DNA of 43,560 nucleotides from a virus. Below, in pieces: positions 37,211-41,140 of the stretch. The DNA is taken from the IMG/VR virus record IMGVR_UViG_3300017527_000399, positions 1 through 43,560 of that record. One strand, 5' to 3'. The translations under genes were made by a program, and so were the position numbers. Positions within the stretch are counted from its first letter, which is position 1, and each line of letters starts with the position of its first letter. Under the pieces are notes generated by a model. It saw only the letters and a list, made by a program, of their open reading frames with translations. It was not told the DNA's origin and searched no databases.

Positions 37211-37457
37211 AATAGTTCTCACAATAGTTCAATTAGCTGCACCGATATTTTGTTTTGCAGTAGGACTTGTCCCACAAGGGATATTCTTAACGTGTTGGAT
37301 AGTCTTTTTTGGTATTGCAGAAGTTGTGGCAAAAACCAAGACAGGCAAGACACTTTCCCAACATGTATGGGCCAAACCGTTATGGATAAGGGTGGTGTTA
37401 TCGTTAATAATGATAGCGGGGATGATAGCGTTAGGATACCATTTTATCCTAGGATAA
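37197..37457 (+). CDS. Small polytopic membrane protein
   Basis: The 86-residue product has two to three hydrophobic stretches (IVLTIVQLAAPIFCFAVGLV; IFLTCWIVFFGIAEVVA; VVLSLIMIAGMIALGYHFIL). The start overlaps the YopX gene by 14 nt after AAAGGGAGCCAAG. Its role is unknown; a holin would be possible by topology, but it lies in the early region. Confidence 0.6.
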   Translation: MKTNEIVLTIVQLAAPIFCFAVGLVPQGIFLTCWIVFFGIAEVVAKTKTGKTLSQHVWAKPLWIRVVLSLIMIAGMIALGYHFILG

Positions 37458-37469
37458 GGTGGCGATTCT

Positions 37470-38471
37470 ATGAGATATTTCAGTATGTTTTCAGGAATAG
37501 GAGGGTTTGAACTTGGGATACGACAAGCCGAAATTAAATCCAAAGATAGCTCCAACAGTAAGAGCGGAACATCACAGCACCTTAGACGTTCACTTTGTAT
37601 TGGTTTCTCCGAAATCAACAAATACGCAATCCAAATCTACAAAAAACACTTTAAAGGACATAAAAACTATGGAAACGCAAGAGACATTGTTTGGGAACAA
37701 GTGCCGGACTTCGACTTTCTCGTTGCCGGATTCCCTTGTCAATCTTTTTCAATCGCAGGAAAGAGAGGCGGATTTGACGATACTAGAGGAACTTTATTCT
37801 TTGAAATCGCAAGGGCTTTATCCGTTAAAAGACCTAAGCTATGCCTATTGGAGAACGTCAAAGGATTGTTATCACACGATAAAGGGGCAACCTTTGGAAC
37901 CATCCTTGCAACCCTTTCTGACTTGGGGTATTTTTTGCAATGGCAGGTACTTAACAGCAAGGATTTCGGTGTCCCACAGAATAGGGAACGAGTGTTCCTT
38001 ATCGGACATCTTAGAGGAACAAGTAGACCAGAAGTATTTCCTCTCTCCCAAAGCAGTAAAGGCAATCTTAAATACTCAGGGGGAGTCATTTCAGCCAGAG
38101 AACAGTGGCTCAAAGACGGAAAGACAAACAGCCGAAACTTCTCGCAAGGACAAAGAATCTACAGCGAAGAAGGGATAAGCCAGACACTTGCGGGTAACGC
38201 TGGTGGACAAGGGGGAAAGACCGGACTATACCAGATAGATAAAATAAACAGAGCTGTGCGAGCTGGCGGTCGTGGAAGCAAGACAGAAAAACACAGGTGG
38301 GATTTAGTTGGCGGAATCAGACGACTTACTCCTACAGAATGTGAAAGACTACAAGGATTTCCCGATGGATGGACAGAAGGGGTAAGCGATACCCAAAGAT
38401 ATAAATGTTTAGGAAATGCGGTTACGGTTAATGTGGTTCAAGCAATTATAGCGAGACTTGATAAAGAATGA
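37470..38471 (+). CDS. C5-cytosine DNA methyltransferase
   Basis: The 333-residue product has all main motifs: FSGIGGFELG (7-16, SAM binding), GFPCQSFS with the catalytic C90, ENVKGLL (128-134), QNRERVFLIGH (170-180), a target-recognition region (about 190-290) and CLGNAVTVNV near the end. It methylates cytosine in a specific DNA sequence, probably to protect phage DNA from restriction. A second protein-like frame overlaps residues 67-236. No partner restriction enzyme is seen. Confidence 0.93.
   Translation: MRYFSMFSGIGGFELGIRQAEIKSKDSSNSKSGTSQHLRRSLCIGFSEINKYAIQIYKKHFKGHKNYGNARDIVWEQVPDFDFLVAGFPCQSFSIAGKRGGFDDTRGTLFFEIARALSVKRPKLCLLENVKGLLSHDKGATFGTILATLSDLGYFLQWQVLNSKDFGVPQNRERVFLIGHLRGTSRPEVFPLSQSSKGNLKYSGGVISAREQWLKDGKTNSRNFSQGQRIYSEEGISQTLAGNAGGQGGKTGLYQIDKINRAVRAGGRGSKTEKHRWDLVGGIRRLTPTECERLQGFPDGWTEGVSDTQRYKCLGNAVTVNVVQAIIARLDKE
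37669..38178 (+). CDS. Protein encoded in another frame within the methyltransferase gene
   Basis: From ATG 37669 (AAAGGA upstream) this frame codes 169 residues; the stop-free frame begins at 37507. The C-terminal part NGRYLTARISVSHRIGNECS followed by LSDILEEQVDQKYFLSPKAV resembles, from memory, a phage protein often found near cytosine methyltransferases (a YLT...LSxILE...KYxLS pattern). The whole stretch is inside the methyltransferase gene in the +1 frame. Motifs VI and VIII of the enzyme lie in the overlap, so both frames seem constrained. Function unknown. Confidence 0.55.
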   Translation: METQETLFGNKCRTSTFSLPDSLVNLFQSQEREADLTILEELYSLKSQGLYPLKDLSYAYWRTSKDCYHTIKGQPLEPSLQPFLTWGIFCNGRYLTARISVSHRIGNECSLSDILEEQVDQKYFLSPKAVKAILNTQGESFQPENSGSKTERQTAETSRKDKESTAKKG

Positions 38472-39826: not shown

Positions 39827-41140
39827 ATGATTGAATACATTTACATACCTATAATTTTATTACTCTATATCAGGCAATATAAATTCTGTCAGGCGATAGA
39901 CGATCCCGTTCCGCGGGAAGGATACTTAGTCGAGTTCCCCCGTAAAGTAGATCCGTCATACTATGATAAGCGTAAACCTTTACTTTGGACTATTACCAAC
40001 ATAACCGTATTTATTTTCACCTGCATAGCGATACATTTATTATTTGATTGGAGAGTTGCATTACTCTACGCCGTCCATCCGTGTAACACACAGAGCGTGG
40101 TATGGGGTAGGACAGGGAATTATTACATGTCTACGTGTTTATTAACCCTCATGGCTCTTCTCAGTCACGGGGAATGGTGGGGGATGCCGTTTTACTTAGC
40201 CAGCCTACATTCAACACTGAACGGTTTACCCCTGCCGTTTCTAGCGATACTCAACCCCATGTATTTATGGTATTTTCCTATTCTGGCGTTGTTCTTATTT
40301 GACCCACGCGGTAAGTTCAGGACACATTTCAAAGAGAGGGTGAAGGGTCATGAAGGCGTAGGAATTAAAGCAGGTGTGTTCAGGTTAAGACATTTATTCA
40401 TTATCCCCAAGGTCTTAGCGTACTATTTAAGATTACAGATCTATCCTTCGAGGTTAGGTTTCTTTCACGAATTTGGCGAAAGAGAAGCCCAAGAAAAAAG
40501 CCTCGCCGTTCCAAACATCCATTTTATAGACTCTACATTATTTATTATTATCTGGGTTTATGTCGGATACCTTACAAACCCGCTGGCGTGTTTAGGCTGG
40601 TTCTTATTTACTGGTTTATGGTCTGGCTATATCCAACTAGGTCAGTTTGTGTCTGAGAGGTACTTACCTTTACCCAACGTATTTTATTGTGTTATTGTTG
40701 CGGGAGTGATACAGAACCCCGTTATATTCACGATCTTATGCACTCTTTACTTTGCTAGGTCTTGGGAGTACACGCCTGCTTATCGGCACAACCTAAACTT
40801 ATTTACTTATTCAATCAAATCATTCCCACACGCGTCCGGCAACCATACTAATTTATATTCATATTATCTACATAAGGACGAACCCTTAAAAGCGATCAAT
40901 CCCCTTTACCATGCTATTTTAAACACTTATGGAAACAAATCCTATTTATGGATGGAGTTAGCGAGCACTTACGGCAAGCTCCAGCGTCCTAGAGAGGCGT
41001 TAAAGTGTACCGAAAACGCGTTAGGGGAATGTTTTCCTAAAGACAAGGATACTTTAATCAAGCAAAGAGATGAGATCAAAGAGAAAGTAAGGAAGATCAA
41101 CGTCTTACAGACCCGCATGGAAAAAGAATTAACGCGTTGA
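39827..41140 (+). CDS. TMTC-like GT-C glycosyltransferase with TPR-like tail
   Basis: This 437-residue polytopic membrane protein has LLYAVHPCNTQSVVWGRTGN (79-98), the hallmark HPxxTxxVxW-GR motif of the TMTC/DUF1736 GT-C family, which in animals includes O-mannosyltransferases acting on exported proteins. An Asp pair (D25-D26) sits after the first membrane span, where GT-C enzymes keep catalytic acids. About eight spans follow. The C-terminal 90 residues (SYYLHKDEPLKAINPLYHAI; SYLWMELASTYGKLQRPREA) look like TPR repeats. Its stop overlaps a convergent gene by 12 nt. Substrate unknown. Confidence 0.75.
   Translation: MIEYIYIPIILLLYIRQYKFCQAIDDPVPREGYLVEFPRKVDPSYYDKRKPLLWTITNITVFIFTCIAIHLLFDWRVALLYAVHPCNTQSVVWGRTGNYYMSTCLLTLMALLSHGEWWGMPFYLASLHSTLNGLPLPFLAILNPMYLWYFPILALFLFDPRGKFRTHFKERVKGHEGVGIKAGVFRLRHLFIIPKVLAYYLRLQIYPSRLGFFHEFGEREAQEKSLAVPNIHFIDSTLFIIIWVYVGYLTNPLACLGWFLFTGLWSGYIQLGQFVSERYLPLPNVFYCVIVAGVIQNPVIFTILCTLYFARSWEYTPAYRHNLNLFTYSIKSFPHASGNHTNLYSYYLHKDEPLKAINPLYHAILNTYGNKSYLWMELASTYGKLQRPREALKCTENALGECFPKDKDTLIKQRDEIKEKVRKINVLQTRMEKELTR

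Follow-up and report, generated by a model that had tools for sequence, protein, structure and literature searches.

The C5-cytosine methyltransferase gene of a phage contig encodes a second conserved protein in its +1 frame, and the two recognizable pieces of this nested protein are both homologous to parts of C5 methyltransferases. We refer to the methyltransferase as alpha and to the nested protein as beta. Judging from comparisons with related genes, we consider it fairly likely that the two form a two-chain C5 methyltransferase, in which the out-of-frame beta supplies in trans the segment that follows motif VIII and carries a second DNA-recognition module (target-recognition domain, TRD). 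The window analysed is the whole of source record IMGVR_UViG_3300017527_000399, a viral contig of 43,560 bases. It comes from a tailed phage, since the contig carries genes for a terminase, a portal, and a major head protein. All results on the alpha/beta locus are computational, and the features of the locus are listed in Table 1. Two minus-strand open frames, 37229-37621 (130 codons) and 37739-38113 (124 codons), also overlap the alpha gene, the first at the 5' end only. Positions 39827-41140 of the window encode a 437-aa protein, an unusual phage cargo. The protein has several hydrophobic stretches and is therefore probably a membrane protein; it has no significant family match, the best (DUF7641, E 0.0045) being under the cut-off.

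Table 1 Features of the alpha/beta locus (positions in the window)
Feature	Position	Strand	Properties and evidence
Alpha, C5-cytosine methyltransferase, 333 aa	37470..38471	+	Motifs I-X and one in-frame TRD; PF00145 6.8e-82 across residues 1-330
Beta, nested +1 open frame, 223 codons from TTG 37507	37507..38178	+	TAA stop 38176-38178; phrog_16143 E 3.6e-32
AGGAGG, Shine-Dalgarno-like, from codons of alpha motif I (GIGG)	37499..37504	+	8 nt before TTG 37513; sequence, scan
TTG, proposed beta start	37513..37515	+	Proposed from spacing and the TRD that follows
+1 target-recognition module, KLNPKIAPTVRAEHHSTLDVHFVL	37531..37602	+	67% identity over 24 aa to in-frame TRD of L211, E 2.8e-9
AAAGGA before ATG 37669	37653..37658	+	Sequence
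Beta from ATG 37669, 169 aa; alternative or second start	37669..38178	+	ATG at alpha YGD site in 44/53 relatives
Beta linker over alpha motifs II-VIII	37603..37995	+	Mostly low predicted order, pLDDT ~50-60; codon identity excess 0.107 ± 0.023
Beta C-terminal segment, SLSDILEEQVDQKYFLSPKAVKAIL	37996..38070	+	Codon identity excess 0.542; HHalign to in-frame post-VIII segments 94%, E 1.2e-7; the same DNA reads RVFLIGHLRGTSRPEVFP in the alpha frame
Alpha motif VIII, QNRER	37977..37991	+	Alpha residues 170-174, invariant Q/R/R
Alpha in-frame TRD, SQGQRIYSEEGISQTLAGNAGGQGGKTGLYQI	38142..38237	+	Alignment with M.HhaI TRD

The first-pass annotation had pointed to a 223-codon frame (37507-38178) inside the methyltransferase gene and had held its length to be unlikely by chance. 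The frame is real: it opens with TTG, lies in +1 relative to the 333-aa ORF, and ends with TAA. With the alpha protein and codon usage fixed, about seven stops are expected in the 169-codon region of the window gene, and none of 300 codon permutations is stop-free across it, in agreement with the claim on length. Methyltransferase motifs VI (ENV) and VIII (QNRER) are intact in the overlap, as had been noted, and so is motif IV (PCQ).

In the permutation test, synonymous codons are shuffled within each methyltransferase gene, leaving protein and codon usage unchanged, and the +1 frame is scored by an HMM of the nested protein trained on genes of other GC content. The window gene scores 119 bits, versus 55 ± 11 bits (maximum, 92) in its permuted copies. 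The median real score is 120 bits for low-GC genes and 105 bits for high-GC genes, versus permuted means of 54 and 32 bits, respectively, and none of 9,400 permutations reaches the real score of its own gene. Stops are absent from the +1 frame, versus 268.6, 71.7, and 111.6 expected in the low- (39 genes), mid-, and high-GC groups, and those of the -1 frame are close to expectation (550 versus 537 in the low-GC group). Because these loci had been chosen through the nested protein, 80 further loci were fetched via the methyltransferase protein alone. All 80 of these viral relatives have a homologous +1 gene (103-214 bits), even at 28% GC. About half of the +1 similarity survives in permuted genes, and the weak +1 matches in non-nested enzymes (15-34 bits) are echoes of alpha conservation. 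However, permuted genes never match the real score, and chance or such an echo is therefore rejected as the source of the +1 signal.

Within alpha, synonymous codon choice is frozen in the overlap alone. This was measured between 97 low-GC genes at alpha positions whose residue is conserved. The excess of codon identity is close to none outside the overlap (0.010 ± 0.014 upstream, 0.019 ± 0.011 downstream), versus 0.107 ± 0.023 in the linker and 0.542 ± 0.035 in the C-terminal motif. Mid-GC genes show the same pattern, and high-GC genes show a small downstream excess too (0.064). The beta linker is weakly constrained and makes the weaker case for selection: an HMM of the linker alone separates real from permuted genes less cleanly (40 of 5,820 and 213 of 2,460 permutations reach the real score), and its third positions vary in distant pairs. 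Permutation, the 80 relatives, and codon identity all indicate selection in both frames, consistent with the first reading of this DNA as coding for two conserved proteins and clearly contradicting the alternative that only the methyltransferase frame is selected. On this evidence, beta is almost certainly a coding gene.

Relatives were drawn as a large set by similarity searches from viral and genome collections. The nested protein had been likened to a phage family seen near cytosine methyltransferases. The family exists, as phrog_16143 matches beta over profile positions 7-133 of 139 and also matches 32 of the 33 members of alignment A1 (too diverse for collection scans), but its members lie inside methyltransferase genes rather than near them. 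Among the first 201 loci, 211 of 217 beta HMM hits overlap a methyltransferase ORF in the +1 frame, and an independent beta family was sought in vain, no member being found without a methyltransferase. Homologues outside methyltransferase genes are thus essentially absent, yet other methyltransferases contain homologous pieces in their own frame. The nested gene is found in phages of Streptococcus, Lactococcus, Enterococcus, Clostridioides, Mycobacterium, Arthrobacter, and Caulobacter, and also in Methanobacterium virus Drs3, on plasmids, and in bacterial and archaeal genome contigs. By similarity, hundreds of phage and prophage genomes share the arrangement; random cellular PF00145 genes are mostly without it. 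Some records annotate the nested gene, and orf14 of Streptococcus phage MM1 is annotated as 'C5 methyltransferase beta subunit'. Phage SpSL1, whose m5C methyltransferase is reported to methylate phage DNA at RCGRC (PMC6755750), has the nested frame. In the openly readable literature, we found no description of an overlap of this kind in phage methyltransferases.

Homology links the C-terminus of beta (SLSDILEEQVDQKYFLS...) to a segment found in frame, downstream of motif VIII, in other C5 enzymes. Bacteroides phage SJC10 has LLKDILEDEVDEKYYLSDKAISGIM in the methyltransferase frame, and many non-nested relatives have a similar in-frame segment between motif VIII and the TRD, for example KRIKDILEGPVPAKYYLS (L372) and PKLRDILEKKVDPKYTLSDK (L389). 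HHalign matches the nested C-terminus to the in-frame segment of non-nested enzymes with 94% probability (E 1.2e-7), versus 3% for the alpha frame of nested genes, which does not align to that segment. The pattern LxD[ILVF][ILVF] follows motif VIII in 17 of 26 non-nested alphas versus 0 of 155 nested alphas. In addition, between motif VIII and the TRD, M.HhaI has 20 residues more than the window alpha, and M.HhaI residues 171-235 find no partner in the alignment. The HHalign match, the pattern counts, and the shortness of alpha indicate a relocation of the segment out of alpha and into beta, and its distribution in beta complements that in alpha.

Most blocks of the catalytic part of alpha are predicted with pLDDT >90, and the alpha model superimposes on its nearest solved relative, M.HhaI, with Z 30.4 (2.7 Å, 236 residues). 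Modelled alone, the small domain of alpha (residues ~200-280) has a pLDDT near 45. Beta alone is poorly predicted by AlphaFold2 except for residues ~111-139; its model is too poor for a fold search, and a search for PDB sequence matches returned none. In the models, these low-confidence parts fit folding only with a partner, but shallow alignments over the TRDs could produce the same result, and the low pLDDT of the alpha small domain may reflect nothing more than this. Beta is quite probably a methyltransferase subunit. Alternatively, the nested protein could be translated but independent (an anti-restriction protein, a regulator, or a DNA-binding protein, for example), with methyltransferase-derived segments that are borrowed. 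Dual coding would hold for any function, and alpha appears complete in motifs; with all ten present, it might be active alone. However, beta essentially always accompanies a methyltransferase, and the segment's complementary distribution also speaks against independence, which we regard as unlikely.

Upstream of ATG 37669, the +1 frame crosses the region between motifs I and II, where alpha has a variable insertion. In 45 of 92 genes, the +1 peptide encoded there matches in-frame TRDs from other alphas (best E 9e-21; L012, for example, matches with 58% over 55 aa), and about half of the genes have no detectable +1 TRD. Each control frame (frame 0, frame -1, and the antisense strand) gives such a match in 0 of 92 genes, and codon-permuted genes give 4-5 of 92. 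Across 53 genes, the TRD region before the ATG contains no +1 stop, versus 88.5 expected. None of the 45 +1 TRDs matches the TRD of its own alpha, versus ~1.1 expected by chance, which is at most suggestive. The order in beta, TRD-linker-segment, is the reverse of the canonical order; this, like the genes with no detectable +1 TRD, counts against the two-chain reading.

ATG 37669, with AAAGGA in front of it, had been proposed as the best start. The site exists and would give 169 aa, but it is not clearly the best. TTG 37513, preceded by AGGAGG (spacing, 8), is no worse a candidate, because a recognizable domain is encoded in +1 before the ATG. Beta probably starts near TTG 37513, although good starts before the +1 TRD are not universal, 3 of 45 genes having no ATG, GTG, or TTG there. 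If beta were made only from ATG 37669, it would consist of the linker and the DILE segment, and the upstream TRD-like stretch would be an untranslated recombination scar. Consistent with this, the ATG at the alpha YGD site is kept in 44 of 53 relatives, annotated nested genes such as MM1 orf14 begin near it, and half of the genes are without the +1 TRD. A TRD landing at random, however, would also strike frames 0 and -1, whereas the matches are all in +1, and the +1 frame is stop-free where stops are expected. A beta made only from the ATG is thus improbable.

Programmed frameshifting from alpha was considered as the source of beta and is disfavoured; we think it very unlikely. A CTT AGA step does lie within the conserved site, with GGACATCTT in 64 of 97 low-GC genes, but the product, motifs I-VIII joined to the DILE segment, would be without TRD, IX, and X. 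Moreover, the +1 frame is already open, and encodes its TRD, long before any such site, and the step is not uniformly kept in high-GC relatives.

Natural rearrangements are found at the same site. In L276 (2156-2719) and L023 (443-1003), an insertion interrupts both frames precisely at the dual-coded site. By eye, the insert carries a putative HNH-type endonuclease gene (CxxC pairs, CLRCNHIKGDF), which has no Pfam match; a group I intron at the insertion site is rejected, as there is no Rfam match. In both loci, beta loses the DILE motif, the alpha frame runs via the insert into an in-frame TLSSILEE..DQKY[FY]LS, and TRD, IX, and X follow as another ORF. In these two loci, the rearrangement is consistent with the segment being tied to the catalytic part. 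L025-L027 resemble the 3' side of similar insertion events. In L281 (1189-2182; Mycobacterium phage Twister gp79/gp78), the methyltransferase is split, with motifs I-VIII in one ORF and, in a second ORF overlapping in +1, a WPTSGTMRNGRLSP...-like start followed by motifs IX and X. The insertions exactly at the conserved site, like the half of the similarity that survives permutation, could suggest that there is no second protein and that the +1 similarity is an echo of alpha conservation or a nucleotide signal (a recombination or homing site), but this scarcely credible reading is already contradicted by the 9,400 permutations, by the absence of stops over 150-250 codons at 28-45% GC, and by the match of +1 peptides to in-frame protein segments of other enzymes.

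The closest precedent for a two-chain enzyme of this kind is M.EcoHK31I (YGGCCR), an alpha/beta C5 methyltransferase that needs both polypeptides. As in the window, its beta lies inside the alpha gene in another frame, as Lee, Kam and Shaw reportedly described in 1995. In M.EcoHK31I, alpha is without motif IX and beta has it (PMC3404938). In contrast, the window alpha has motif IX (RRLTPTECERLQGFPDGW), and the window beta has the post-VIII segment and a TRD instead. Therefore, the location of motif IX sets the window enzyme apart from M.EcoHK31I among C5 methyltransferases with a nested beta. In M.AquI, a split C5 methyltransferase, two chains likewise make one enzyme, but its beta carries the distal variable region with IX-X (PMC3404938), whereas the window alpha itself has IX and X.

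Rani-type genes (Paenibacillus phage Rani gp50/gp51, L283; L290-L330) have a +1 nested beta in 38 of 41 fetched relatives. The profile of this beta resembles the N-terminal part of the window beta (92%, E 6e-7), a similarity that may partly be an alpha echo, but it has a motif-IX-like LNPDWVECLMGFPIGWT that the window beta does not have. In a further phage methyltransferase class, represented by L283 (Rani), L282 (Mycobacterium phage OwlsT2W), and L290-L330, motif IX is read in +1 and alpha keeps X, as in M.EcoHK31I. By these features, Rani-type phage genes look like relatives of M.EcoHK31I. The proteins of phrog_16143, including MM1 orf14, are homologous nested +1 proteins, as in the window, but what exists for them is annotation; in the readable literature, we found no description of their function, the segment homology, or the second TRD. 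The multispecific C5 methyltransferases of Bacillus phages also have more than one TRD per enzyme, in tandem and in one frame (PMC8936443). The window has one TRD in frame in alpha and, by similarity only, one in +1 in beta; unlike in the Bacillus phage enzymes, the second is thus out of frame and in another protein. The ShiLan domain also involves overlapping frames inside a phage methylase gene (PMC11855218), but it is an out-of-frame insertion of an HNH homing endonuclease, whereas the window beta is made of methyltransferase pieces.

There are precedents for natural two-chain C5 enzymes and for complementation between fragments (PMC3404938), and we propose that alpha and beta work as follows. 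Alpha, in frame 0, would provide the catalytic motifs I-X and one TRD but not the LxDILE...KYxLS segment that other C5 methyltransferases have in frame between motif VIII and the TRD. Beta, probably from TTG 37513, would be produced from the same mRNA by internal initiation and would consist of the second TRD, a mostly flexible linker, and the segment absent from alpha. The DILE/KYFLS segment of beta would dock on the catalytic domain of alpha and complete the small domain, and the second TRD would let the enzyme mark a further sequence against host restriction. Whether beta adds a second specificity is, on the similarity of its TRD, about evenly balanced. We lean neither way on the more general scheme, in which the out-of-frame recognition module would be part of a separate subunit supplying a core segment removed from alpha, and modules would recombine between in-frame and out-of-frame sites to give two exchangeable specificities.

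If the two-chain reading is correct, a very common class of phage methyltransferases, usually annotated as one intact enzyme, would be a two-chain enzyme encoded in two frames. Expressing alpha in recombinant or codon-optimized form would drop a subunit unnoticed, and predictions of specificity based on alpha alone would miss part of it. The locus would also be a rare long conserved same-strand overlap (100-200 codons), present from archaeal viruses to mycobacteriophages, in which each frame encodes part of one and the same enzyme. Because relatives carry the same segment in frame, it offers a natural test of how overlapping genes originate and persist.
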